Assembly (NCBI GenBank): GCA_020724485.1
Contig: DYGW01000004.1
Span: 1 to 38,391, forward strand
Source: Thermoflexus sp.
Lineage (GTDB): Bacteria; Chloroflexota; Anaerolineae; Aggregatilineales; Aggregatilineaceae
DNA length: 38,391 bases
Direction: 5' to 3'
This document shows, piece after piece, positions 113 through 18,106 of this stretch. The notes under the pieces were generated by a model. The model did no database searches. It worked only from the letters and a program-made list of their open reading frames with translations, and was not told the DNA's origin. Within the stretch, counting starts at the first letter, position 1; every line of letters starts with the position of its first letter. The position numbers and the translations under genes are program-made.

Positions 113-1096
113 CTACGCATAGCGCAGTTCATAGGGCACGGTGTTGCTCAGCAGTTCTCCGATCAGATCGGTGAATTCTCCCAGCGAATCGAAGATGGCC
201 ACGCTCACCGTGCCCGCAGCGATGCGCTCCAGCGCATCGCGCACCCGCGTGATCTGCTCGCGGTAGTTGTCCTTCAGCGGGCTGACGGTGGGGGCGGGCA
301 CCGGCCCGCTGCTGAGTGTCAGCACGCCGGAGAAGTCCACCAGGTGCGGGGCCTGGGCGGAACGCATCGCGCCGTTGGGCTGCAGGAAGGTGTAGAGCAC
401 GCTTTGCAGCAGAGCCTGGGCGCGCAGGACGCGCTGTTCCTCGCTGATGGCGTACCGCTGTGTGATGTCGTTGAAGCCGATGCGGGCCAGTTCCAGGTGG
501 CACACGGCGGCGTAGATGCCCGACGACGCCGGGCGGTGGAAGATGGCCTGACCCAGGTTCGCGCCGGTTCCGACTGCCTCGCGGTCGGCGGCGCGCTGTT
601 CCCCGCTGCGCTCGGTGGCGTACTTGACGTGGAAGTAGCTATCGGTCTCGACGCGCTCCGGCACGCCCACCACCCAACCGAACTCGATCACGCTCTTGCG
701 CGGGACGCTGCGCCCGCCCTCAGTGATGAGGATGCCTTCGATGTCGTCCATCGCGCAGGTCTGGAGCATGGCGTCGAGCGTTTGCGCGTCGCTGAGGCCC
801 TTGGTGTCGGCAATGAATTTGCCGTCAGCGTTGATGCGGTTGGCGTTGAACTCGCGGCATCCGGCGCACAGCGGCAGTTTTGAGTCTCCGCGGGCGGTGT
901 GGAACAAATGCTCAGCTTGAATGTGCTTGAACATGTCGCCGCTGATGGCGTTGACGTTCTGCAGTTCGCCGTGCTGGTCAACGATGTTGACCATGCGCGT
1001 CTGAATCTGATTGCCCTCGCCGCCCTCATTGTTGAGGCTGTGCATGTCCAGTGTGGCGCGGGCGCTGATCGAGAGACTGTATAGCTGAGTGGTCAT
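113..1096 (-). CDS. cas7: CRISPR-associated protein Cas7, DevR/Csa2 family
   Basis: This 327-aa protein is the crRNA-backbone subunit of a type I Cascade complex. The N-terminus has the DevR-family pattern: a first RAMP strand (residues 6-18), the stretch SLNNEGGEGNQ (20-30), an R-x-V-x-I-V strand, then the hallmark NAISGDMFKHIQAEHL (49-64). A CAGC pair at 77-80 followed by N-rich residues may bind metal or sit in the crRNA-binding thumb. The start overlaps the stop of the upstream Cas8-like gene by 4 nt (ATGA), so translation is probably coupled. The stop is followed after 11 nt by the cas5 start. The family assignment is firm. The subtype is not settled, because DevR-type Cas7 proteins occur in I-A, I-B and MYXAN-like systems. 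Confidence 0.9.
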   Translation of the reverse strand: MTTQLYSLSISARATLDMHSLNNEGGEGNQIQTRMVNIVDQHGELQNVNAISGDMFKHIQAEHLFHTARGDSKLPLCAGCREFNANRINADGKFIADTKGLSDAQTLDAMLQTCAMDDIEGILITEGGRSVPRKSVIEFGWVVGVPERVETDSYFHVKYATERSGEQRAADREAVGTGANLGQAIFHRPASSGIYAAVCHLELARIGFNDITQRYAISEEQRVLRAQALLQSVLYTFLQPNGAMRSAQAPHLVDFSGVLTLSSGPVPAPTVSPLKDNYREQITRVRDALERIAAGTVSVAIFDSLGEFTDLIGELLSNTVPYELRYA

Positions 1097-2856
1097 TGGG
1101 TAATTTCCTCCTCTTCGGTAGTTTCGGGCGTTTTTGCTTCAGATTCGCCTGGTTCTGCTTCGTACGGTTCGCGCGCATAGCCGTAAGCGATCAAGAGATT
1201 GGCGACGGTCTCGGAGCCGAACTCGTCAATGAGCGCCACAATTTCATCAATGTCAGAGGTCTTGACGCTGCGACGGTACGGCCCGCTGCGGTTTTCCATC
1301 ACCTGGGCGTTCTCCGCGTTGTACTTGTGCAGGAAGTCGCTCAGGGCAGCGATGAAGCTCTCCGGGTAGCGCGCCTTGCGGGCCAGCTCCTGTCCCAGGC
1401 CATAGCGCACGTCATACTTGCGGTCGCCCTGCTTCTTGCGGTACTGCGCCGTGACCGTGCTCTGCCGGATGGCATAGGCGATGTTTTGGAAGCCCTGGCT
1501 CTCCAGGATGCGGGTGAGGCGTTTCTCTGTGCTCATGACCAGCCTTTCTATGAACTCCGTGGTAAGCTGACGGGCGTACTTGTTCTGTTCCCGCCGTCCG
1601 ATGAGGTAGGCGGGAAACGCATTGGTGAAGCGGAAGAAAGCGTCCAGGTCGTCGCCGGAGACGAAGTCGCGCAGGTATTGCAGCAGCGTGAAGGCATCGC
1701 TGTGCCCTTCGTCGAACTGGCGCACAAAGCTTTCGAGTTCGGCCAGCAGGCCGATGTACAGGTCTACTTCCTCGCGCGAGCGCACCTCGACCCAACCCGG
1801 CAATGCGACGAAGGACAGGTTCATGGTGGCCACCGAACTGCCCAAGTCCTTGTAAAAGGCAGCGTGGAAGCCAGCCACGACGCGCTTTTTGATCTGTTGC
1901 AGACCGAGCAGGCGGGCCAGACCGCCTGGCTCGGCGCTGAAATGCTCCAGCAGGGCCCTGGCATAGCGCAGCGCGGCCAGGATGTCGAAGCGCGTTGCGG
2001 ACTCGGAGGCCTGCATGGTGTCCACAAAGCCGCTCATGATCGCCTGACTTTCGGAGAAGGTCAGCTCGCGCGGCGCGACGACGAGGGTTTTGCGATCCTT
2101 TGTGCCGCGCATCAGGCGGGTCAGCGCGGCTTCGTAGAAGCCGACCGCTTTCAGCCACTCTGTCAGCCATAGCGCATCGAGATTGCCAATGCTCAGTGCG
2201 TCCGCTTTCGCTCGGTTCTGGCCCTTGCCCTGGTCGGGGTTGTAGAGTTGCTGGCAGGTAGCCTGCCCTTTGATTCCCCAGCCGTACCGTTTGTCCAACT
2301 CCTTCCACCGGTTTTCGGCAGTCTCATAGTCGTTGGGCGTAGCGCTGTACAGGTCGAGCAGCAGCAGCAAAACCTGCGGCTGTGCCTGCCGGATCGCCCA
2401 CCAGTCGAGTGCCATGCTGTTGTAGCCGATGAGCGGCCCGCCTTGGGCGTTGATCGCTTTGTAGGTTTCCCAATGCCGGTTTGGTTTTTCGGGCGAAGCG
2501 CTGCTATTTCCCCCCGCTCGGCGAGCCGCAAAGAACAGGTTGACCCGCTCGCGCTCTTGCTCGTAATCAACCATCAGGTCGGACGGGAGATCGGCGGGCA
2601 GTTTCTCCCGGTTCTTGATGGTGACGATCGCCTTGAGAGGAAACAGGCTACGATGGCTCTCGACCGTGCTGCGCTCCAGGGCCGGTGTGCACGTCAGTTG
2701 GTAGTAAGGCCCCCTGTCTTGAATCAGGACATTTCTCCCTCCTTTCGTTTGCTCGCCGAGCAGTTCATGCACGATACGCGCCAGGCCAAAGACAACCAGG
2801 ATGTCGGCAAAGGTCTGGCTGGTTTTGTCTACGTAGAAATACTTGTACTCCTCCAT
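1093..2856 (-). CDS. cas8: Cas8-like large subunit of type I Cascade
   Basis: This protein of about 587 aa sits between cas3 and cas7, where type I operons encode the large subunit that recognises the PAM and recruits Cas3. I see no motif that fixes a Cas8 subfamily; Cas8 proteins diverge strongly. The start YKYFYVDKTSQTFADILVVFGLARIVHELLG resembles the N-terminal helix of Cas8a1/Csx13-type proteins, and the C-terminus is a Glu/Thr-rich acidic tail. A GTG lies 3 nt upstream of the ATG at 2856, but it directly abuts the Shine-Dalgarno AAGGAGG, so the ATG is preferred. The stop overlaps the cas7 start by 4 nt, and about 31 nt separate it from cas3. The Cas8 role is inferred from operon position and size. 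Confidence 0.65.
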   Translation of the reverse strand: MEEYKYFYVDKTSQTFADILVVFGLARIVHELLGEQTKGGRNVLIQDRGPYYQLTCTPALERSTVESHRSLFPLKAIVTIKNREKLPADLPSDLMVDYEQERERVNLFFAARRAGGNSSASPEKPNRHWETYKAINAQGGPLIGYNSMALDWWAIRQAQPQVLLLLLDLYSATPNDYETAENRWKELDKRYGWGIKGQATCQQLYNPDQGKGQNRAKADALSIGNLDALWLTEWLKAVGFYEAALTRLMRGTKDRKTLVVAPRELTFSESQAIMSGFVDTMQASESATRFDILAALRYARALLEHFSAEPGGLARLLGLQQIKKRVVAGFHAAFYKDLGSSVATMNLSFVALPGWVEVRSREEVDLYIGLLAELESFVRQFDEGHSDAFTLLQYLRDFVSGDDLDAFFRFTNAFPAYLIGRREQNKYARQLTTEFIERLVMSTEKRLTRILESQGFQNIAYAIRQSTVTAQYRKKQGDRKYDVRYGLGQELARKARYPESFIAALSDFLHKYNAENAQVMENRSGPYRRSVKTSDIDEIVALIDEFGSETVANLLIAYGYAREPYEAEPGESEAKTPETTEEEEITQ

Positions 2857-2887
2857 CACACCTCCTTATGGGTTCTCAGCCCGTGTG

Positions 2888-5317
2888 TCATAGGCTTCTG
2901 GTTCCGCGCTCTGTTCCGCGCTGATCGGCGCGACGCAATACACGGACGATGAGCAGATAGGCCAGGAAGCTCGCCAGGTCGTCATCGTCATCTTCAGGTT
3001 GCGCGATGGCCTCGCTTGCCCCGAAACTGGACGGGATTTCCTCACTCAACCCGGCCAGGTTCTCGATCCAGCCACCCATGTCATCCCCCTGGCGCAAGAC
3101 CGCCCGGACGTGTGTCGGAGCATTTCTGACCAACCGGAAAGGCTGGTTATCATCCGACTTTGGCGCATGGTGGCGGGCAATGGCGCTGAAAGCGGCCTTC
3201 GCCAGCGGTGGCTGCTCCGCGAAGACGCCAAAGAGAATGGGCGCGGTGGCAATCGCCCCCTCCACCGCGTGCCAGGAACGCTTGCCTGTTTTCCGTTCGG
3301 CTTCGCGGTGAGCGTCGTTCTGCACTTCCGTATGAGCGTAAGCCTGCCCCGCTTGTACGGGCATCCCGATCGCGTCCTGGTAACGCTTCACCCAGCCCTG
3401 CCACCTGACGCTCAGTTTGCCCACGTCGTGGAGCAGCACGGCCAATTCCGCCGCCTGCCGGACGCTGCCCCGTGACCAGCCGTAGCGTTCTTCCAGGCAA
3501 CGCGCCGCATAGTCCAGTTCCGGCCACAGTTCTTCGAATGCCTCGTACACCCGGCGAATGTGGTCTTCGTAGGTTTCCAGGTGATAAGTGTAATCGGGGC
3601 GCTCGCTGTGCTGGTCTCTGCTGGGTAACTCAGCCCGCCAGTCACCACCGCGATCCGGCAGGAAGCCGAGGGCGGGGTCGTAGGTCGCCAGGGATGGGTG
3701 CACCACGATCAGCGGCGCGCCCCAGGCTGTCTTCGGCGTATACACTTCTTCCCATGTGTAGGCAGAGCGGTTGGCCTGGCTGGCCTCTTCATCGGGTACA
3801 GAGCACAGATACTTGACCGCCCAGGGGAGTTCAGGCGCATCGGCCTGATCCAGCCACGCCTTGACATACTTCTGCAGCGTGCCCGGATGCAGCCCGAAAG
3901 AGGGCGCATCGAACGGAGAAGCGAGCAATTCGTTCGGGTTGGGGTGCACGGTCACTTGCTGCTGGAAGATTTCGCGGATCAGGTGCCTGGCGTCGGCGGT
4001 GTCGTCGTGACGCATCACGGCGAACATGCGCCGCCGGTGCTCGTAGGCCCCGCGCCGTAGCGACTCGATGATCTGCGCGTCGAGCGGGCCGTGCACGGCG
4101 GAGATGATGTCCTGTTCGGCCTGGAAGTCCAGCGCTTCGCCAGCGCGCTCGCGGAACTGCTCCAGCGTCGGGCCGAACAGCTTCTTTTCTTCCTTGCCTG
4201 CATACGGTTCGGGGTGTTCGCACAGATCGAGCACTTCCCCGGAAGTGGCATCGAGCGCATAGGGGTAAATGGTCACGTCCCCTTCTTCGCCCTGGTAACG
4301 CGCACAGCGCCCCGCCCGCTGCAAGATGGCGTTGGCGGGGGCCAGTTCCGTGTGCAGGGCCGCACTGGTGATGTCAACACCTACCTCGATGGCCTGCGTG
4401 GAGACGACGATCAGGCTGCCGTCCTTCACGCCTCTGGCGAAATGGGTGCGGAGACGTTCTTCGATCTGGTCACGATGTTCTCGTAAGAAGCGGCTGTGGA
4501 GCAGCCAGACTTCGGTATCGGGGGCTTTGGCGCTTTGCAATGCTTCGTAGAGAGCACGGGCACGATCCACCGTGTTGCAAATCACCAGCGAACGCCCCTG
4601 GTGTCTGTCGAGCACAGTCTGAGCTGTCAGCGGCTCGTCGGCGACGTGATAGCGCCGGGTTTTCTGCTGTGACTCCAGACCCTGAAGCTGCTCTCGTTCC
4701 TCGTCCGTGCCGGGCACAACCTCAGCGTCCAGAACCCTGGCCAGCCCGTCGAGCATATCCTTGCTGAACGTGGCAGTCATCAGCACGAATGGCGTGATGC
4801 CGCGTAGCATTTGCAGCATGTGCAGCGTTGTGGGCAGGGTCGAATCCGGATCGAAAAGGTGGAATTCATCAAAGACCAGGTAAGAGGCCATCACCGCTGC
4901 CGCATTGAGGTTGGCCTGGCGCAGCGGCAGGCTATAGGGGGCGAGCAGAAAGCTGCTGAGCGTCTGGTCAATGGTGGCGAAGATCAGGTTGGCGCTGAGG
5001 TCACGGCTGACTTGCTGCTCGCCAGTCTGAATCGCGGTGGTGATGTTGAGAGCATACCTGAGGTTATATTTCTGTACAGTCTGCCTGTACTCCTCATAGA
5101 ATTGCCTGGCCAGCACGCGCATTGGCACCGAGTACACACACTTGTGAGGGAAGTCTCGGTAGTACTCTGTCTCGTAGTCCATTGCGGTCAGAAAAGGATA
5201 TAACGCTGCCCGCGTCTTTCCAGAGCCGGTTGGGGCTTGCAGGATGACATTGCGGCGCTCCTTCAACAGCAGATCGAAAACCCGCTCTTGGTGCGGCCAA
5301 AGTCCATTATCACTCAT
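2888..5317 (-). CDS. cas3: Cas3 helicase-nuclease with C-terminal HD domain
   Basis: This 809-aa type I interference nuclease-helicase degrades target DNA after Cascade binding. The N-terminal half is an SF2 helicase: Walker A APTGSGKT (28-35), DEFH box (150-153), motif III TATFS (181-185), motif V STQAIEVGVDI (306-316) and motif VI QRAGRCAR (333-340). The C-terminal half is an HD phosphohydrolase-type nuclease: an early His in YEDHIRRV (H586), the HD pair in LLHDVGK (H630, D631), His-His at 716-717 and a terminal RADQRGTE. In most Cas3 proteins the HD domain is N-terminal, so this order is a distinguishing trait. The start lies 3 nt after the WYL regulator stop, suggesting co-transcription. 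All expected catalytic residues are present, so the enzyme looks functional. Confidence 0.93.
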   Translation of the reverse strand: MSDNGLWPHQERVFDLLLKERRNVILQAPTGSGKTRAALYPFLTAMDYETEYYRDFPHKCVYSVPMRVLARQFYEEYRQTVQKYNLRYALNITTAIQTGEQQVSRDLSANLIFATIDQTLSSFLLAPYSLPLRQANLNAAAVMASYLVFDEFHLFDPDSTLPTTLHMLQMLRGITPFVLMTATFSKDMLDGLARVLDAEVVPGTDEEREQLQGLESQQKTRRYHVADEPLTAQTVLDRHQGRSLVICNTVDRARALYEALQSAKAPDTEVWLLHSRFLREHRDQIEERLRTHFARGVKDGSLIVVSTQAIEVGVDITSAALHTELAPANAILQRAGRCARYQGEEGDVTIYPYALDATSGEVLDLCEHPEPYAGKEEKKLFGPTLEQFRERAGEALDFQAEQDIISAVHGPLDAQIIESLRRGAYEHRRRMFAVMRHDDTADARHLIREIFQQQVTVHPNPNELLASPFDAPSFGLHPGTLQKYVKAWLDQADAPELPWAVKYLCSVPDEEASQANRSAYTWEEVYTPKTAWGAPLIVVHPSLATYDPALGFLPDRGGDWRAELPSRDQHSERPDYTYHLETYEDHIRRVYEAFEELWPELDYAARCLEERYGWSRGSVRQAAELAVLLHDVGKLSVRWQGWVKRYQDAIGMPVQAGQAYAHTEVQNDAHREAERKTGKRSWHAVEGAIATAPILFGVFAEQPPLAKAAFSAIARHHAPKSDDNQPFRLVRNAPTHVRAVLRQGDDMGGWIENLAGLSEEIPSSFGASEAIAQPEDDDDDLASFLAYLLIVRVLRRADQRGTERGTRSL

Positions 5318-5320
5318 GCC

Positions 5321-6358
5321 TCATTCTCCAAAAATGTCCTTGAAACGGCTGTGGTCGTGCTGCCGATCAGTTGACGTATGCCAGCCATAGAGATGAGCCA
5401 GCCGTCGGGCCTCACCGACCATCTCGTCGCGCAAGTCGGCGGGTTCGAGCACCTCGCAGTTGGCTCCCCAGGTGCGAATCCAGGGTTTGAGATCGGTGGT
5501 GTCAGCGACTTGTAGCGACAGCAACAGATAGCCCGGCTTGTCCTCATCCCAGCTTAGCTCCTGCGAGGAATGCCACTGCGTTTCCTGCACGCGGCGGGCT
5601 ACGTCCGGGTGAAAACGCAGGGCAACGCGCGTCAGTTGTTCGCCGTAGAAGATTGACCAGGCGCTGCGCAATAATTCCAGACCAGGGAAATCACGGGGAA
5701 CCTGGTATTCTTCTTGCAGCAGCAAACGCGCGTGGGTGATGCGTTCCAGCTTGAACGTGCGTAGGGCGTTCACGATACTGCTATGGCCGATCACATAGGT
5801 GGCAAAGCCAATGGCCGAGGGTTCGATCAAGTAGGGGGATACTACGGTGGTGAAGGGTTTTCCTTGATAGGGCGTGTAAACAATCTCGACTTTGCGCCGG
5901 TTGATGTAACCCTGCATCACCGTGCGAAATACGTTTTCATAACCCGGCACAGTGGGGCGCTGGGCCAGTTCGCGCGCCGCGGCCAGGATGTCTTCTTGCA
6001 GCCCGACATCACTGGTCAGTATCTCGGCCAGCCGCATCAGCAAATGCTCGGCAGCTTCGTTGCGCTTGTCGTGCTGTTTGACAAACAGGCGCACGGCCAG
6101 GTACAGCGTCATTGCTTCTTCGGGCCGTAGTTCCAGCCGCCGCAAGACCATGCCCTGGTGCGGCAAGGAAAACCACAACGCTCCCTCGCGATAAACGTAT
6201 CCTTGGGCTTCCAGTTCGCGCAGATAGTTGTTGACGGTGCGCCGCTCGAAGTTCAGCGTTTGTGCAATCTCGACCTCGCGCAGGCCGTCGGGGTTACGTT
6301 GCAGTAGCAAGGCAATGCGTTCGAGCCGCTCACGGCGTGTAGCTTCAGGTGTGCGCAT
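5321..6358 (-). CDS. WYL-domain transcriptional regulator of the cas operon
   Basis: This 345-aa protein is a DNA-binding regulator. An N-terminal winged helix-turn-helix (about residues 8-60) carries the recognition segment FERRTVNNYLRELEAQGYVYRE. A WYL sensor domain (about 140-230) includes the motif IVYTPYQGK and the stretch IEPSAIGFATYVIGHS, and a WCX-like C-terminal extension follows. WYL domains bind nucleic-acid or nucleotide ligands and often control CRISPR and other defence operons. A GTG 9 nt upstream overlaps the Shine-Dalgarno sequence, so ATG at 6358, with GGGGAGGT 7 nt before it, is the better start. It is the first gene of the minus-strand cas operon and lies 3 nt from cas3. 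It therefore probably regulates its own transcription and that of the cas genes; this is inference. Confidence 0.87.
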   Translation of the reverse strand: MRTPEATRRERLERIALLLQRNPDGLREVEIAQTLNFERRTVNNYLRELEAQGYVYREGALWFSLPHQGMVLRRLELRPEEAMTLYLAVRLFVKQHDKRNEAAEHLLMRLAEILTSDVGLQEDILAAARELAQRPTVPGYENVFRTVMQGYINRRKVEIVYTPYQGKPFTTVVSPYLIEPSAIGFATYVIGHSSIVNALRTFKLERITHARLLLQEEYQVPRDFPGLELLRSAWSIFYGEQLTRVALRFHPDVARRVQETQWHSSQELSWDEDKPGYLLLSLQVADTTDLKPWIRTWGANCEVLEPADLRDEMVGEARRLAHLYGWHTSTDRQHDHSRFKDIFGE

Positions 6359-6481
6359 GCCGTTCACCTCCCCAGACTGATATGAACATCTTACTATAAA
6401 CGCCTAAGACAAAGTAGCACACGCGAGCATCTCCTCTATTTCCAGTTTATCTGGGCGTTGGAATCTTTTGTTCCAAACAGT

Positions 6482-10608: not shown

Positions 10609-10679
10609 TTTTGGCGTGGTGAGGGGTGCTGGAAACGCGCCAAGATAAGAGGAGAAGCCATAGCTCACGGTGCGAGACG

Positions 10680-11357
10680 ATGAAAACAGACCAACCTATT
10701 CACATCGTATTGGCCGACGATCATCAAGTCGTCCGGCACGGCATCAGGCAATTCCTGTCCGCCGCCGGGATTGACGTGGTCGCCGAAGCGGAGGATGGCG
10801 AGCAGGCGCTGCGACTCATCGAGCAGCATCGCCCCGATGTCGCCGTGCTCGACATCCAGATGCCGGGCTACAGCGGCATCGAGGTAGCGCGCCGGGTGCG
10901 GGCCAGGGGAGTGCCGGTCGGCTTGCTCATTCTGACCGCGTTTGACGACGATCCGTTCATCATGGCGGCGCTCGAAGCCGGGGTGAATGGCTTTGTGCTC
11001 AAGACCGCCGACATGGAAGAGATTATCGCGGCGGTTCGGGCCGTCTATGAAGGAAAATCTGTGCTCGACCCGGAAATCCTGCCTAAGCTGATGCACGCTG
11101 TAGCCGCGTCCCATGAGCCGAAGATGCCCTACGAACCGCTGACCGAGCGCGAGTTGGAAGTGCTGCGAGCGACAGCGCGCGGCCTCACCAACAAGGCCAT
11201 CGGCTTGCTGCTGAACATCAGCGACCGCACAGTTCAGGGCCATCTGCGCCGGATCTTTGAGAAGCTAAACGCCGCCAACCGGACCGAAGCGGTGGTCACC
11301 GCGTCACAGCTCGGGCTGCTAGAACTGCCTGCGTCTCATGAAGATCCGACCGCCTAG
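10680..11357 (+). CDS. NarL/LuxR-family response regulator
   Basis: This 225-aa two-component response regulator has a receiver domain (about residues 7-122) with the acidic pair DD (13-14), phosphoacceptor D58 in VLDIQMPG and the conserved Lys in FVLKTAD. A LuxR-type helix-turn-helix follows (about 155-215): LTERELEVLRATARG, then SDRTVQGHLRRIFEKL. A longer reading frame begins at 10626 with GTG, but the domain starts right after the ATG at 10680, so that start is chosen; the ribosome-binding site is weak for either. The stop lies 20 nt inside the following histidine kinase gene, so the pair is translationally coupled. Its targets are probably the surrounding metal and redox genes, by proximity only. 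Confidence 0.9.
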   Translation: MKTDQPIHIVLADDHQVVRHGIRQFLSAAGIDVVAEAEDGEQALRLIEQHRPDVAVLDIQMPGYSGIEVARRVRARGVPVGLLILTAFDDDPFIMAALEAGVNGFVLKTADMEEIIAAVRAVYEGKSVLDPEILPKLMHAVAASHEPKMPYEPLTERELEVLRATARGLTNKAIGLLLNISDRTVQGHLRRIFEKLNAANRTEAVVTASQLGLLELPASHEDPTA

Positions 11358-13008
11358 CCTGCCGTTGCAACTGCTCGTCTTCGTCGTGCTGCCGTTGTTG
11401 GTGCTGCTGATGGTCGTCGCCTTCGGCGGCGTTGCCTTGCATCAGGCGGCCATGCGCGACATGTTGGCCAACCACAACGACCAGGTCGTGGCCGGCGCAG
11501 CGTCCGGCCTCTCTGAGCAGCTTGTCCAGTGGCGCGAGATTCTGTCCGAGTTAGGCTTGTCTGGCGCTGATCCGGAGTCCGTACAATCACTCGTGGAAAG
11601 GTCAAGCTGGCTGGGCACGCTATTTGACGGCGGGGTGGCGATCTTCTCGGCGGATGGGCGCTTGCTGGCTGCATCGTCGCCCGGCGCTGACTGGCCAGCG
11701 TTGGGCCAGCAGATCAGCAGCCAGGCCCCATCTGCCTTTGTGCCCCTGGTTGAGCCTGGTCAGAATGCCACGCGCATCGCGATTCAGGCTACCGCAGGCG
11801 GACTGCGTGTCGTAGGGGTCGTGTCGCTCGACGCGCTGCCGCTCAGCAGTATCTTGACGAGCCTGCATGAGTCCGCCAGCACCGCCGTCTATCTGCTGGG
11901 CGCTGACGGCGTAGTGCTGTATCACAGCGATCCGGGCCGCGTCGGGGAGCATTTTGCAGCAGCCGTGCCTGGCCCCGCGACGGTTGAGCGCACCGGCAGG
12001 GAAGGAAGCGACGTAGTAGCCACAGTTGCGCAGATTCCAGTGGCCCAATGGACACTCGTTCAGGAAGAGCGCTGGAAGGAAACGCTCAGCCCGGTCATGC
12101 GCTATTCGCAGGCCGCGCCGCTGGCCCTGGTGCCAGGGCTGCTCATCGCTATGGGGGCCATGTGGTTCGGGATACGGCGGATCGTGGTCCCGCTGCGGCG
12201 GCTGGAAGCGCAGGCGACCGAGCTAGCCTGGGGCGATTTCGCCGCCATCGAGCAGCAGGCCGGCGGCATCAATGAGATCAAGCACTTGCAGGCCACGCTT
12301 CAGCATATGGCCAAGCGCGTCCAGGCGGCCCAGGTGAGTATGCACGATTACATCGGAGCGATCACTCACGCCCAGGAAGAGGAGCGCCAGCGCCTGGCGC
12401 GCGAGCTGCACGACCAGACCACCCAGGCGCTGATTGCCCTGGATCATCGCCAGCAGATGCTCAAGCCCTACCTGACGGATGACCCGGCAGCGGCTGAGCT
12501 GCTCGCGGGAATTCGGGCGATGATCGTGGAGACAATCGAGGATTTGCGCCGTATGGTGCGGGCGCTGAGGCCGGTCTACTTGGAGACGCTTGGCCTGGTT
12601 CCGGCACTGCAAATGCTCGCCCGCGACCTGGAACTCGACGAGAGCATGGCGATCCACTTCGAGAAAACGGGGTCACCGCGGCGGCTGGCACCAGAGCACG
12701 AGATCGCGCTCTATCGCATCGCGCAGGAGGCGCTGAACAACGCCCGGCGGCACAGCGGCGCATCGCAGGTCTGGTTGAGCGTCCAGTTTGGCGAGAAGCA
12801 GATCACCGTATCCGTCCGGGATAATGGCAAGGGCTTTTCTCCGCCACGTCACGCCGCAGAACTGGGCGAAGGCGGCGCGAAGCACTTTGGCATCATGGGC
12901 ATGCACGAGCGCGCGGCGCTCATCGGGGCGCATCTCCAGGTTCAATCGGAGCCAGGAGCGGGCACCACAGTGACCGTCCGGACTCCGATTGTGACAGCGC
13001 CGGAGTGA
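11338..13008 (+). CDS. NarL-type sensor histidine kinase with extracellular sensor and HAMP
   Basis: This 556-aa membrane kinase has a first transmembrane helix at about 10-34. An extracytoplasmic sensor region follows at about 35-255, Cache-like by the pattern VYLLGADGVVLYHSDPGRVG. A second membrane helix (about 258-280) leads into a HAMP domain with a RRLEAQATELAWGDF segment. The HisKA_3 dimerisation helix contains ERQRLARELHDQ with the phospho-accepting H358. The HATPase domain has the N-box EALNNARRHS (N467/N468), the DNGKGF G-box and the late GIMGMHERA motif. The gene overlaps the response regulator by 20 nt. It presumably senses an extracytoplasmic signal; the copper-related neighbours on both sides suggest metal or redox stress, but no metal-binding motif is obvious in the sensor. 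Confidence 0.9.
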   Translation: MKIRPPSLPLQLLVFVVLPLLVLLMVVAFGGVALHQAAMRDMLANHNDQVVAGAASGLSEQLVQWREILSELGLSGADPESVQSLVERSSWLGTLFDGGVAIFSADGRLLAASSPGADWPALGQQISSQAPSAFVPLVEPGQNATRIAIQATAGGLRVVGVVSLDALPLSSILTSLHESASTAVYLLGADGVVLYHSDPGRVGEHFAAAVPGPATVERTGREGSDVVATVAQIPVAQWTLVQEERWKETLSPVMRYSQAAPLALVPGLLIAMGAMWFGIRRIVVPLRRLEAQATELAWGDFAAIEQQAGGINEIKHLQATLQHMAKRVQAAQVSMHDYIGAITHAQEEERQRLARELHDQTTQALIALDHRQQMLKPYLTDDPAAAELLAGIRAMIVETIEDLRRMVRALRPVYLETLGLVPALQMLARDLELDESMAIHFEKTGSPRRLAPEHEIALYRIAQEALNNARRHSGASQVWLSVQFGEKQITVSVRDNGKGFSPPRHAAELGEGGAKHFGIMGMHERAALIGAHLQVQSEPGAGTTVTVRTPIVTAPE

Positions 13009-13355: not shown

Positions 13356-13988
13356 CTAGCTCGACGGCGCAAGCTCAACCAGCAGCGCTTCCATAGTGGC
13401 GATCTCCGCCGTCTGATCGTCAATGATCTGTTGGGCGAGGGCGCGTAAGTCCTCGTGCTCGGCGTAGCGCAGCACCCGCTGGGCCATATGCAGCGCATCG
13501 TCGTGATGGTCGATCATGGCTTCCAGCCAGGCGATGTCATAGGCGATGCCTTCTACACGGTCAAAGCCGGCCATCATGCCCATCATGAGGGGCATATCGG
13601 TCGCTGGATTGGTCGTGTGATCGCCGTGTCCCATATCCATCCCGGTGTTTGTGCCCAGCCCCATCAATTCCATCAGTTGGGACATGGACATCGGCGCATA
13701 GTCAATGCCGTACCAGGCCGACAGCCAGCCGCGCATCAGCTCAATTTCCGGCGTCTGGGCGTCAATCACATTCTGGCACAGCGTGCGGACAGCGTCGGTC
13801 GCGGCCTTCGGTAGGCAGTGTTCGGCCATGTCCAAAGCCATCTGGTGGTGGTCTACCATCCCTTCCATGAAGCGCACCTCGGCGCGCCCGGCGCGCCCGG
13901 TTACCGGCGCATCCGCACTGGCGGACTGCACCGCCAGGAGCAAGATCGCGCCTACCAACCCTAGCAGGTAACTCAACCGCTTCAACAT
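13356..13988 (-). CDS. DUF305 exported metal-associated protein
   Basis: This 210-aa protein has a signal peptide (MLKRLSYLLGLVGAILLLAV, cleavage near ASA-DA). Two DUF305 four-helix units follow: the first has FMEGMVDHHQMALDMAEHCL and the second has WLEAMIDHHDDALHMAQRVL, each with the family His-His pair. The linker is Met/His-rich (MDMGHGDH, MPLMMGMM). DUF305 proteins such as cyanobacterial CopM bind copper outside the cytoplasm. The track start at 14069 is too long: Shine-Dalgarno AGGAGAG precedes the ATG at 13988, and the signal peptide begins there. A sigma70-like promoter lies at 14033-14061. The gene diverges from the PCYCGC/CuA operon. Confidence 0.88.
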   Translation of the reverse strand: MLKRLSYLLGLVGAILLLAVQSASADAPVTGRAGRAEVRFMEGMVDHHQMALDMAEHCLPKAATDAVRTLCQNVIDAQTPEIELMRGWLSAWYGIDYAPMSMSQLMELMGLGTNTGMDMGHGDHTTNPATDMPLMMGMMAGFDRVEGIAYDIAWLEAMIDHHDDALHMAQRVLRYAEHEDLRALAQQIIDDQTAEIATMEALLVELAPSS

Positions 13989-14032
13989 ATGGGTTACTCT
14001 CCTGGTACCTTCTTCGCCAGTACAATGCTGCA

Positions 14033-14061
14033 ATAATACGCCCATTGAGACCCGCTGTATA
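14033..14061 (-). promoter_or_regulatory. Sigma70-like promoter of the DUF305 gene
   Basis: On the minus strand a TATACA -35 element (14056-14061) and a TATTAT -10 element (14033-14038) are separated by 17 nt, 45 bp upstream of the DUF305 start. The operator-like site at 14063-14076 abuts the -35 element. Confidence 0.55.
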
Positions 14062-14062
14062 T

Positions 14063-14076
14063 ACGCCATTTAGCGT
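14063..14076. promoter_or_regulatory. Operator-like site 1, ACGC-N6-GCGT
   Basis: ACGCCATTTAGCGT is a dyad with 4-bp ends. It shares the core ACGCCATTT-R-GCG with site 2, 98 bp away, and lies at the -35 edge of the DUF305 promoter. It is a candidate binding site for a shared regulator of the divergent units. Confidence 0.45.
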
Positions 14077-14161: not shown

Positions 14162-14173
14162 CGCCATTTGGCG
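14162..14173. promoter_or_regulatory. Operator-like site 2, CGCCA-TT-TGGCG
   Basis: A perfect 12-bp dyad about 25 bp upstream of a TATAGT -10-like hexamer (14198-14203) that would serve the plus-strand redox operon. The region where a -35 would sit (about 14175-14180) is a poor match, which would fit an activator-dependent promoter. Confidence 0.45.
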
Positions 14174-14239
14174 CATTTCTTTGGGCAGCCGCTGTTCTAT
14201 AGTAGAAGGCAGCCTGTAACGGACTTCACGGAGACCCCT

Positions 14240-14680
14240 ATGCGACTTCTGCGGCAACCCGCCCTTGTGCTTCTGCTGCTGGCTGGTGCGCTGGTGTTGG
14301 CTGCGTGCGGCGGCAGTGCGCAGAACGCGACCAGCGTGGCTGCGCTGCCCGACTGGGCGCGCAGCGCCCCTCCCCGCGTGCGCGAAGCGTACCAATACGC
14401 CGTGGCCAATCCAGAGGAATTGAAGAAGTATCCCTGCTACTGCGGGTGCGGGGCGATGGGCCACACCAGCAATTTGAGCTGCTACATCCAGGACATCGCG
14501 CCGGATGGCGCGATCACCTTTGACACGCACGCGATGGGCTGCGGCATCTGCGTGGACATCACCCAGGACGTGATGCGTCTGAAGGCGGAGGGCAAGACCT
14601 CGCTGGCCGTGCGTACCTACGTTGACGCCCAGTACAGTCCCTTCGGCCCGCCAACCGATACGCCGCTGCCCGCGGAATAG
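14240..14680 (+). CDS. PCYCGC-motif lipoprotein
   Basis: This 146-aa lipoprotein has the signal sequence MRLLRQPALVLLLLAGALVL and a lipobox LAAC at C23, anchoring it outside the membrane. The mature domain contains PCYCGC (65-70), which names its family, then C81 and a CGIC pair (C101, C104) near HAMGCGICVD. Six cysteines and nearby His residues could bind a metal or form redox disulfides. A longer frame starts at 14168, but the signal peptide begins at the ATG at 14240. It opens the five-gene redox operon; the next ATG is 4 nt past its stop codon. The biochemical function of this family is unknown. The context suggests copper delivery to, or thiol redox chemistry for, the CuA proteins that follow. 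Confidence 0.85.
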   Translation: MRLLRQPALVLLLLAGALVLAACGGSAQNATSVAALPDWARSAPPRVREAYQYAVANPEELKKYPCYCGCGAMGHTSNLSCYIQDIAPDGAITFDTHAMGCGICVDITQDVMRLKAEGKTSLAVRTYVDAQYSPFGPPTDTPLPAE

Positions 14681-14684
14681 GCCC

Positions 14685-15191
14685 ATGACGCGCCCTCCAT
14701 CGCCCCTGTCCATGCGGCCACGCCCGATCTGGGTACTGTTCGGTCTGGTGACGTTCGCTGTGCTGGTCGCGCCGCTGCCGGGCGCTGCCGGGGCCGCAAC
14801 GCGCGAGATCGCGCTGGACGCGACGCAGTTTGAGTTCGCGCCGGGGCGGGTGCACGTCAACCGGGGCGACCGGGTGGTGATCACCCTCACCGCCTCGGAC
14901 GTGGTGCACGGGTTCTACCTGGATGGCTATGGCCTGGAGCGGCGCGTGGAACCGGGCATTACTGAGCAGATCGCGTTCACGGCGGACAAGCCCGGCAAGT
15001 TTCGCTTTCGCTGCGCGGTGAGTTGCGGCCCGCTGCATCCTTTCATGATCGGGGAACTGATCGTCGAGCGCAACACGCCGTACTGGCGCGCCGTTGGCGT
15101 CGTGCTGGTCGCCGCGGCGGGTATGCTGGTTCATCTGTGGCAATCGGGGAAAACCAGGTCATCTCAGGAGGTGATCAATGGCACAGGCTAA
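14685..15191 (+). CDS. Membrane-anchored CuA cupredoxin (COX2-like)
   Basis: This 168-aa protein has an N-terminal signal or anchor helix (about 15-37) and a cupredoxin domain (about 40-128). It carries a complete CuA ligand set: H75 in DVVHGFYL, then C110-x3-C114-x3-H118-x2-M121 in RCAVSCGPLHPFM, the pattern found in cytochrome oxidase subunit II. A second transmembrane helix follows at 133-150. CuA centres take electrons from cytochrome c or cupredoxins and pass them to oxidases or NosZ. No catalytic subunit is encoded nearby, so this is a stand-alone electron carrier or a copper-site assembly partner. The start at 14685 is 4 nt after the previous stop. The gene's last 14 nt overlap the next gene's start region. 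Confidence 0.85.
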   Translation: MTRPPSPLSMRPRPIWVLFGLVTFAVLVAPLPGAAGAATREIALDATQFEFAPGRVHVNRGDRVVITLTASDVVHGFYLDGYGLERRVEPGITEQIAFTADKPGKFRFRCAVSCGPLHPFMIGELIVERNTPYWRAVGVVLVAAAGMLVHLWQSGKTRSSQEVINGTG

Positions 15192-15699
15192 GAAGCGCAG
15201 GCGCAACAGGCAGCGAGCACCCAACAGCGCCAGGAGATGGCTCGTGGCCGGCGCAGCCGGGGCCATGATGGTGATCCTGGCGGCATTGGCGTTGGCGTCA
15301 CGTCAGGACGAATCGCTCGGTCAGAAGACCTTCGACCCGGACTTTGCGCCGCAGGTGACCGGCGCACCGCGTCTTGAAGTGCTCCCGCAGGATGTGGTTG
15401 ATTACGGCGATGTCAGGCTGGGCACGACGATCACCACCGTCTACACCGTGCGCAACGTTGGCGACGCGCCGCTGGTCATCTACGGCGAGCCGCGCGTCGA
15501 ACTCATCGAGGGCTGTTGACCGCCCCGCGCTGTCGTCAGTTCGACGACCATTGATCCTGGCCACGAGGCCACCGTTTCGCTGTCCTTCAACATGCACGCT
15601 GGCATGGACGGCCCGCATGAGTTCCGCGTCCATCTGCGCACCAATGATCCGGCAGAACCGAACAGGCAGTTGACCATCCTATCGAACTGGGTGCCCTGA
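15178..15699 (+). CDS. DUF1573-like membrane protein, candidate selenoprotein (UGA at codon 114)
   Basis: Read with the in-frame TGA at 15517-15519 as selenocysteine, this gene gives a 173-aa protein. It has a basic N-terminus, a membrane anchor (about 21-41) and an extracytoplasmic Ig-like DUF1573 domain (about 65-173). Both halves match the family in one frame: before the TGA are DYGDVRLGTT and TVRNVGDAPLVI; after it are IDPGHEATVSLSF and VHLRTNDP. The TGA follows C113 (EGC-U-PPR), in the loop where DUF1573 proteins carry a conserved Cys cluster. A SECIS-like hairpin follows. Shine-Dalgarno AGGAGGT precedes the ATG. The polyferredoxin start is 2 nt past the TGA stop at 15697-15699. Alternatives are a nonsense mutation, a sequencing error, or a 113-aa truncated product. 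Confidence 0.8.
15517..15548 (+). promoter_or_regulatory. UGA codon and bacterial-SECIS-like hairpin
   Basis: After the in-frame UGA (15517-15519), a perfect 6-bp stem GTCGTC/GACGAC (15532-15537 and 15543-15548) encloses the 5-nt loop AGTTC. The loop begins 18 nt after the UGA and has G in its second position. Both features fit the general bacterial SECIS consensus: apical loop roughly 16-37 nt from the UGA, with a G in the first two loop bases. Such elements recruit SelB with Sec-tRNA. Confidence 0.65.
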
Positions 15700-15701
15700 C
15701 G

Positions 15702-17084
15702 ATGCTGAATGAAGGACGCTTCGACCTGTTGGCGCGCGCGCCGCTGCTCAAGCGTATGTTGCAGGCGCGCGCCTTCCAGCCGGCCCTGATGCTGGCGACG
15801 CTGGCTGTCTTCACGCTGGCTATCCTGACGGGGCTGGCGGGCACGCCAGCAGGAAGCCGCAACTTCGGCATCATCTTCGTGTGGATCGTGTGGTGGGCGC
15901 TGTTGATCGTGGTGTTGGTGCCATTCTTCGGGCGCTTCTGGTGCACCGTCTGCCCGGTCCCTGCGCCGGGCGAATGGCTCCAGCGCCGCGCCATCGTGCA
16001 GCGCGGCCCGGCTCGGCCCTGGACGCGCGGCCTGCGCTGGTCGCGCCGTCTGAAGAACATGTGGCTACAGAATCTCGGCTTCTTGGGCGTCGCCGTGTTC
16101 AGCACGATTATCCTCACCCGTCCGAACGTCAGCGCCCTAGTGCTGCTCGGCTTCCTGCTGGCTGGCGTCGTGCTGAGCGCGCTCTACAAGAACCGCGTGT
16201 TCTGCCGCTATGTCTGTCCGGTGGGCGGCTTCATCGGGCTGTACTCGCTGCTGTCGCCCGTTGAGCTGCGTGTCGCCGACCCGGACGTGTGCGCCGATCA
16301 CAAGACGAAGGACTGCATCACCGGTAACGAGGCCGGCTATGGCTGCCCCTGGATGGTCTTCCCCGGCAACCTGACGCGCAACGTCTACTGCGGCCTGTGC
16401 TTTGAGTGCCTGAAAACCTGCCCCAAGAACAACATCGTGCTCAATCTGCGCCCCTTCGGCAGCGATCTGATGGTCGCCAAAGAGCGCCGCCTGGACGAAG
16501 CCTACAAAGCCTTCATCATGCTCGGCTGCGCCCTGCTGTACTCGGTGGTGCTGCTCGGTCCCTGGGGCTGGCTGAAGGGCTGGGCCAATATGGAGTCATT
16601 GCCGCACTGGGGCCTCTATGCGCTCGGCTTCGTGGCCTTCAACCTGGCGCTGCTGCCGGGGTTTTTCTGGCTGGCCGTGTGGGGCGCGCGGCGGATGACC
16701 CCCGCTCGCCAGCCCATGCGCCGCCTGTTTGTGGACTATGCCTACACGCTGATCCCGCTGGGGCTGGCGGCATGGATCGCGTTCAGCGTCGGGTTTGTGC
16801 TGGTCAATGGCAGCTATGCGCTGTCCGTGCTCTCCGACCCCTTTGGCTGGGGCTGGAACCTCTTCGGCACAGCAGATGCGGCCTGGACGCCGCTAGGAGC
16901 CACCCTGATCCCCTTTCTTCAAGTGGGGATATTGACTGCCGGACTGCTGCTCGCGCTGAACACCGCCTACAAGATCGCGCGCCAGCACCACGCGCACCAC
17001 CGTCCCGCCTTTCTGGCGGCGCTTCCGGTGAGCGGATTCGCGCTGATCACAACGCTGGGATTCCTGAGACTGTACCTGGGGTGA
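15702..17084 (+). CDS. NosR/NapH-like polyferredoxin membrane protein
   Basis: This 460-aa integral membrane iron-sulfur protein has helices at about 26-48, 55-76, 123-139 and 143-162, plus at least four more after residue 265. Cysteine motifs of the NapH/NosR/CcoG group are present: C81-x2-C84-P, C168-x3-C172-P, and a ferredoxin motif C230-x2-C233-x2-C236-x3-C240-P, with extra Cys at 197, 205 and 215. Proteins of this class move electrons between quinol or flavin donors and extracytoplasmic acceptors. There is no FMN-binding domain as in full NosR. It starts 2 nt past the DUF1573 stop and ends 2 nt before the CuA-cytochrome c gene, so it is a central component of the operon. Its donor and acceptor are not known. 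Confidence 0.87.
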   Translation: MLNEGRFDLLARAPLLKRMLQARAFQPALMLATLAVFTLAILTGLAGTPAGSRNFGIIFVWIVWWALLIVVLVPFFGRFWCTVCPVPAPGEWLQRRAIVQRGPARPWTRGLRWSRRLKNMWLQNLGFLGVAVFSTIILTRPNVSALVLLGFLLAGVVLSALYKNRVFCRYVCPVGGFIGLYSLLSPVELRVADPDVCADHKTKDCITGNEAGYGCPWMVFPGNLTRNVYCGLCFECLKTCPKNNIVLNLRPFGSDLMVAKERRLDEAYKAFIMLGCALLYSVVLLGPWGWLKGWANMESLPHWGLYALGFVAFNLALLPGFFWLAVWGARRMTPARQPMRRLFVDYAYTLIPLGLAAWIAFSVGFVLVNGSYALSVLSDPFGWGWNLFGTADAAWTPLGATLIPFLQVGILTAGLLLALNTAYKIARQHHAHHRPAFLAALPVSGFALITTLGFLRLYLG

Positions 17085-17086
17085 CG

Positions 17087-18106
17087 ATGGAACGTCGCGA
17101 AGTGGCGGCTTGGGTCGCCGTCGGGCTGATCGTGATCGGTTTGCCAAGCGCGGTGTTGGGCTACCAGCACTGGCTGCGGCTGGCAGCCGCCGAGCAGCGC
17201 GTGATTGACATCCAGGCCTACGCGCCAGAGAGGGGCGGGTTCGCGCCGGATGCGATCCGCGTGGCGGTCAACGAGCCGGTGACGCTGCGCTTCGCGGCGA
17301 TGGATGTGACGCACGGCGTCGCGCTGGGGCCGGGGCTGGGCGTTGACCTGGGCCACATCGATCCGGGCAAGGTCAAGGAGATTTCGCTGACCTTCGACCG
17401 GCCCGGCACGTACACCTACTACTGCAACACGTGGTGCGGCCCGGATCACTGGCGGATGCGCGGCACGATCCAGGTCATCGATCCAGCCAATCCAGACTTG
17501 CTGCCAGCCGCCCAGCCGGACCCGGTCATCGCGGCGCTGATCGCGGAGGGCGTGGATATTGACGCCCAACATGACGCCGGGCGCAAACATGGTGACGCTC
17601 CCGCCCTGATCATCGAGCGCCCACCTTCGGCGCAGCGCGGCGCAACTCTCTTCGGCAGCGTGACGATCCCCCCCGAAGTGAGCGATCCCGCCTGGCGGCG
17701 CTCGCACCCCCCGGCCCACGTCCTTGAGTTGCTCCGCCAGACCAACCGCCAAGCCCCGCAGGCTGATCTGATAGACGTGGTCGCCTATTTGTGGACGACG
17801 GACACAGCGCCAGAAACGCTGGCAGCCGCCGAGTCGCTGTACAACAAGAACTGCGCCGCCTGTCACGGGCAGACTGGCGGCGGGGATGGGCCGGCAGCCG
17901 GCACGACAGCCGAAAAGCCGGTCGCTTTCGCGGATGCCGCGTATCTATTCGAGCGGCGAAGCGATGTGCTGTACGCCAAAATCCGGCGCGGCGGGATGGG
18001 GACTGACATGCCGAACTTTGGCACCCTGTTCACGCCGGAAGAAACCTGGGCGCTGGTCGAGTATCTCTGGACGCTGCCGGTAAGCGCCTTGCCGGAACCG
18101 CGTTAG
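17087..18106 (+). CDS. CuA cupredoxin fused to cytochrome c
   Basis: This 339-aa exported or anchored protein has an N-terminal helix at about 7-25. A cupredoxin domain (about 38-132) has a full CuA set: H76 in DVTHGVAL and C113-x3-C117-x3-H121-x2-M124 in CNTWCGPDHWRM. A middle segment (about 160-237) looks like a cytochrome c fold with RGATLFG and VVAYLW but has no CxxCH. The C-terminal class I cytochrome c has CAACH (256-260) and axial Met candidates M304 or M308. This resembles caa3-oxidase subunit II but lacks its two-helix membrane anchor. The longer frame starting at 16406 is rejected, because ATG at 17087 lies 2 nt after the previous stop and opens the signal helix. It ends the redox operon. 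Confidence 0.87.
   Translation: MERREVAAWVAVGLIVIGLPSAVLGYQHWLRLAAAEQRVIDIQAYAPERGGFAPDAIRVAVNEPVTLRFAAMDVTHGVALGPGLGVDLGHIDPGKVKEISLTFDRPGTYTYYCNTWCGPDHWRMRGTIQVIDPANPDLLPAAQPDPVIAALIAEGVDIDAQHDAGRKHGDAPALIIERPPSAQRGATLFGSVTIPPEVSDPAWRRSHPPAHVLELLRQTNRQAPQADLIDVVAYLWTTDTAPETLAAAESLYNKNCAACHGQTGGGDGPAAGTTAEKPVAFADAAYLFERRSDVLYAKIRRGGMGTDMPNFGTLFTPEETWALVEYLWTLPVSALPEPR

Follow-up and report, generated by a model that had tools for sequence, protein, structure and literature searches.

A predicted Cys-Sec selenoprotein of the DUF1573 family in a CuA-domain gene cassette of Chloroflexota

The window analysed here is a 38,391-nucleotide stretch of Thermoflexus sp. (contig DYGW01000004.1, positions 1 to 38,391). 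On its forward strand, positions 15178..15699 hold an open reading frame for 173 amino acids that starts at the ATG at 15178, preceded within a few bases by AGGAGG. It contains a single in-frame TGA, codon 114 (15517..15519, +), immediately 3' of the Cys113 codon. The true stop of the gene (15697..15699, +) is TGA as well, so the cell must distinguish two UGAs in one message. The predicted read-through product, with Sec at 114, has an N-terminal hydrophobic membrane anchor and a DUF1573/ASH-HYDIN Ig-like domain, and reads ...IEGCUPPRAVVSSTTIDPGHEATVSL...RTNDP... It scores above the gathering cut-off both for Pfam DUF1573 (PF07610; 32.3 bits, cut-off 26.1) and for the Pfam HYDIN/VesB Ig domain (31.0 bits, cut-off 25.5), and these matches extend across the UGA. 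A first-pass annotation of this DNA had described DUF1573-like sequence before and after the TGA, the peptides IDPGHEATVSL and RTNDP in the read-through part, a vicinal Cys-Sec pair at the UGA and a next start 2 nt past the final stop. Each of these observations holds: the matches span the UGA, homologues have an in-frame UGA with conserved flanks, both peptides occur in the translation past the TGA, the UGA is the codon right after Cys113, and the next reading frame begins at the ATG at 15702, leaving a gap of 2 nt after the stop.

The gene sits among others that recur with it. Its start lies within the end of a gene for a membrane-anchored cupredoxin with a full CuA motif (CAVSCGPLHPFM; 14622..15191, +); in 42 loci a homologue of this cupredoxin lies close to the selenoprotein gene. 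Upstream of that is a lipoprotein of the PCYCGC/CYCXC family (OS_HP4 family; 14168..14680, +), here in its Cys form (PF13798, 107.6 bits; NF041379, 63.9 bits), with a homologue in 34 loci. Two nucleotides downstream of the selenoprotein gene, a membrane Fe-S protein resembling NapH/MauN (Fer4_5; 15702..17084, +) has a homologue in 32 loci, and it is followed by a protein with a CuA domain and cytochrome c (17081..18106, +), with a homologue in 46. PCYCGC lipoprotein, CuA cupredoxin, DUF1573 selenoprotein, NapH-like Fe-S protein and CuA-cytochrome c thus form a recurring cassette. Genes for histidine kinases and response regulators resembling those at 10626-13008 of the window occur near the gene in 33-38 loci, and heavy-metal/Cu P-type ATPases lie within 5 kb of it in 22. 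In the window, a gene for a DUF305 protein that matches the CopM metallochaperone model (13356-14069, -; 102.8 bits against a cut-off of 90) also lies upstream, with homologues in the vicinity of the selenoprotein gene in 5 loci. TlpA-like and CcdA-like genes are found near some loci (Leptolinea type), and a scan for three diagnostic neighbours came up empty in 16 of the 49 well-flanked loci. PCYCGC/OS_HP4, encoded here beside a Sec-DUF1573 gene, is another family for which both Sec and Cys forms are known; no Sec form of it was found in the flanks scanned. Elsewhere in the window, positions 113-5317 (-) carry the CRISPR-Cas genes DevR/Csa2 (Cas7) and Cas3 with an HD domain, between which lies a 588-aa protein that matches no Pfam model; next to them, at 5321-6367, is a WYL-domain regulator. 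The window gave no Rfam match at gathering thresholds.

Of 100 relatives searched at the protein level, 25 have homologues, and many of these contain a single in-frame TGA. Scanning 84,980 genomes with two patterns, one of which does not touch the codon-114 site, yielded 80 homologous loci (genome contigs), nearly all from Anaerolineae/Chloroflexota. Of these loci, 57 have TGA at the aligned codon, 17 have TGC and 6 have TGT; TAA, TAG, TGG or any other sense codon occurs in none of the 80. It is on these aligned codons that we read the UGA as Sec114, and all TGA members carry the GCU motif, as part of G-C-U-P-P in the window. The first-pass annotation had named Cys homologues at codon 114 as support for its reading and homologues ending at the site as evidence against it; the former are present and the latter are not. 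With the site masked from the tree, parsimony counts 12 interchanges between Sec and Cys, at least 6 of them forced by well-supported branches, and two genomes (G063 and G044) carry one copy of each form. So many independent exchanges, including genomes with both copies, make this subfamily a good natural experiment on the retention and loss of Sec.

Downstream of the UGA, after a 12-nt spacer (15520-15531), lies a hairpin of 6 bp (15532..15548, +), with stem arms GTCGTC (15532-15537) and GACGAC (15543-15548) and a 5-nt loop, AGTTC (15538-15542), that has G at its second position. A hairpin with a 5-nt, G-containing loop had been proposed 18 nt downstream; it is the loop that starts 18 nt after the UGA, and the hairpin proved real on comparison. 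All six pairs form at fixed spacing in 58 of 58 TGA genes, the window gene included, so that 324 of 324 cells of the alignment are paired, with 45 two-sided compensatory changes. The covariation score is 0.418 against 0.218 in shuffled alignments (reached in 0 of 500), and sliding the alignment to other registers gave a worse result than the true one. The stem occurs as GTCGTC/GACGAC, GTCATC/GATGAC, ACCATC/GATGGT, GCCATC/GATGGC and ATCGTC/GACGAT, with pairing kept through GC/AU and UA/CG double changes. The six residues encoded here follow the stem, being VVSSTT with GTCGTC and TIGSMV or VIGSMT with ACCATC or GTCATC. Among 55 genes, five of five third codon positions in the hairpin are invariant and no flanking third position is, which argues that the RNA constrains the protein as well.

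If the hairpin serves Sec insertion, it would be expected to decay where Cys has replaced Sec, and in 21 of 23 Cys homologues it has. The two that retain all six pairs (L049 and L050) are close kin of the window lineage and look like recent Sec-to-Cys changes. Frame, codon and hairpin are all conserved in the 57 further TGA genes, and the arrangement is therefore not due to chance.

The genome also encodes the machinery for Sec. We found tRNA-Sec (68.6 bits, cut-off 47), selB (346 bits, cut-off 242) and selA (533 bits, cut-off 268) on one contig (C130) and selD (375 bits, cut-off 125) on another (C279), so that all four genes the first-pass annotation suggested looking for (selA, selB, selC and selD) are present. 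A tRNA gene search of the window itself found none, tRNA-Sec sitting on its different contig. Counting fragments as well as whole genes, selA was detected in 11 of the 12 genomes that have a Sec copy and in 7 of the 11 whose copies are all of the Cys type, a weak trend in the expected direction; in G044, an incomplete metagenome-assembled genome with a Sec copy, it was not detected. The selD gene (L015:385-1320) carries an in-frame TGA of its own, in the motif CAGUASK, and is a second selenoprotein gene of the same genome.

The AlphaFold2 model shows a fold of 125 residues with a pLDDT of 95.8. Its best fold match in the PDB is 2qsv (Z 13.3, rmsd 2.5 over 105 residues), with further matches to 6bqm (Z 11.6) and 2e6j (Z 10.6). 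Termination at 113 would split this modelled Ig domain mid-fold, which counts in favour of read-through. The protein shares its predicted fold with these ASH/HYDIN/VesB-type Ig domains, but the likeness ends at the fold; the Cys-Sec pair and the Met/Met/His set belong to the present subfamily. Cys113, Sec/Cys114, Met139, Met143, Gly145 and His147 are invariant among 54 sequences, and His140 is nearly so. The domain probably faces outward.

Taken on this comparative evidence, the reading frame at 15178-15699 is almost certainly a real selenoprotein gene. We are also highly confident, though a shade less so, in the whole of the explanation that fits best: one selenoprotein gene of a Cys-Sec DUF1573 subfamily, in which the hairpin directs Sec to position 114. 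By this mechanism, tRNA-Sec and SelB would decode the UGA at codon 114 as Sec, guided, as comparative genomics shows, by the hairpin at 15532-15548. The product would be a membrane-anchored, extracytoplasmic Ig domain of the DUF1573/ASH-HYDIN type with vicinal Cys113 and Sec114, the latter swapped for Cys at the same site in other lineages.

What such a protein might do is suggested by its residues and its neighbours. Because the Cys/Sec/Met/Met/His set is invariant and the cassette with CuA genes recurs, we infer a probable role in the handling or maturation of copper or thiols, with Cys113/Sec114, Met139, Met143 and His147 as a putative soft-metal or thiol-redox site serving the adjacent CuA proteins. 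The most economical reading would be an extracytoplasmic factor that handles soft metal (copper) or thiols for them. For copper handling in particular we would give slightly less than an even chance; what points towards a copper chaperone or CuA assembly factor (Sco, PCuAC type) is the gene's neighbourhood and the invariant Cys/Sec/Met/His residues. It is tempting to go further and propose a Sec-dependent copper metallochaperone, whose Cys-Sec pair and Met/Met/His set on an ASH/Ig domain would load or repair neighbouring CuA centres, with Cys replacing Sec where lineages drop it; we regard this specific form as tentative and rather unlikely. We found no description of this conserved CuA-domain cassette, in which a selenol may handle copper.

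The protein could instead be an extracytoplasmic thiol/selenol redox protein, acting in oxidant defence or disulfide exchange, and this is a sizeable possibility. A vicinal Cys-Sec pair could form a selenenylsulfide, a redox role is assumed for most uncharacterised selenoproteins (PMC13188914), and there are the TlpA-like and CcdA-like genes near the Leptolinea-type loci. However, the model resembles ASH/HYDIN Ig domains and not a thioredoxin fold, the gene has CuA proteins and Cu P-type ATPases for neighbours more often than thioredoxin-like genes, and its product has two invariant Met and an invariant His in addition to the pair. Roles other than copper handling or redox share the remaining probability.

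As to novelty, the proposal of a new selenoprotein stands for the mechanism, borne out by codon, hairpin and machinery, and fails for the family. The first-pass annotation had not counted DUF1573 among the standard selenoprotein families, but it is listed as OS_HP2 (PMC2398784, PMC9312934, PMC13188914); "OS_HP2/DUF1573" has been on such lists since 2007-2008 (Zhang and Gladyshev 2007, 2008). The family is therefore not new; the Cys-Sec (GCU-PP) form probably is. The motif of OS_HP2 is given as UxC (PMC2398784) and that of DUF1573 selenoproteins as UGC (PMC9312934, PMC13188914), whereas the TGA members here carry GCU. Typical DUF1573 proteins have CGC(T), a motif we took from CGC-type Chloroflexota sequences and which marks a motif difference rather than a Pfam criterion; the present proteins have EGC-U/C-PP instead. 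In a profile alignment with the CGC type, the first Cys of CGC, which is where the UGC form has its Sec, falls on Glu111 and the second on Cys113, while Sec114 lies in an insertion, three positions after the first; this comparison rests on the published OS_HP2 motif and the CGC-type Chloroflexota relatives. An inventory of May 2026 splits subfamilies by the position of Sec, lists only UGC for DUF1573 and has no entry for the GCU-PP form, which by that rule is therefore an unlisted subfamily (PMC13188914). Judged through the published motif, the GCU-PP proteins thus probably form a new subfamily, set apart by its Sec position, within a family already listed.

We consider it unlikely, though by no means negligible, that the protein simply belongs to the known OS_HP2/DUF1573 (UGC) family and has nothing new about it. 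The two share the domain family (NF041425, PF07610) and the alternation of Sec and Cys in the same Cys-bearing loop, and the window protein has NF041425 (OS_HP2_seleno) as its best NCBIfam match, a model that each of the 25 relatives scanned also hits (best E 2.7e-10). Yet every member tested scores far under the curated cut-off of 100 bits, the window protein at 36.1, nothing reaches that cut-off among 400 Chloroflexota genomes, Sec follows Cys in E-G-C-U-P-P, three positions later in the profile alignment than in UGC, the inventory holds only UGC under its rule of Sec position, and the present proteins have the extra invariant M..M..H set. Listed selenoproteins with a vicinal CU, namely SaoL, SaoC, HgcA, MbdU, CopZ-family form 2 and KCU-star (PMC13188914), likewise have Sec directly after Cys, and several are tied to metals or mercury, but by their listed domain models they belong to other families, none of them DUF1573 (PMC13188914).

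It is very improbable that the UGA is read not as Sec but as Cys or Trp, through suppression or a variant code. Cys does occupy the site in homologues, as such a reading would have it. Against it, TGA also terminates the same gene, Trp is found at the site in no homologue, a covarying hairpin is present in every TGA gene and mostly gone from the Cys genes, and the genome has the full Sec machinery; a variant code for UGA was rejected on the same points. Least credible of all is a pseudogene or sequencing error, a nonsense change of a TGC/TGT codon. Such a codon lies one base from TGA, and one relative does have a degenerate copy, but the comparative data refute this reading. TGA stands at the site in 58 genes, always with the frame intact on either side; these genes come from many independent assemblies, one of them the complete genome of Leptolinea sp. 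HRD-7 (L108), which rules out sequencing error, and TAA or TAG never stands at the site.

Ordinary annotation would truncate the gene at the UGA, so at least 57 related genes, in Chloroflexota that are mostly uncultured, are likely annotated at half length. The degenerate copy itself (L041, genome G053) is frame-broken, with several stops beside the GCU motif, and is a pseudogene or an assembly error. Three of the four same-genus genomes searched (G001, G003, G004) are without the selenoprotein gene, yet all three carry selA; the distribution within the genus is patchy, possibly through horizontal movement. Plasmids and viral contigs searched held no relative of the gene. GCU-type genes also occur in metagenome-assembled genomes labelled Acidimicrobiia, Actinomycetes and Clostridiales (L057, L096, L115); the last is nearly identical to Levilinea/Leptolinea sequences and therefore reflects mis-binning or recent transfer. 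A divergent member from the phylum (L131, 81-380, -) reads NESCUPQP, with a Cys-Sec pair that lacks the preceding Gly.
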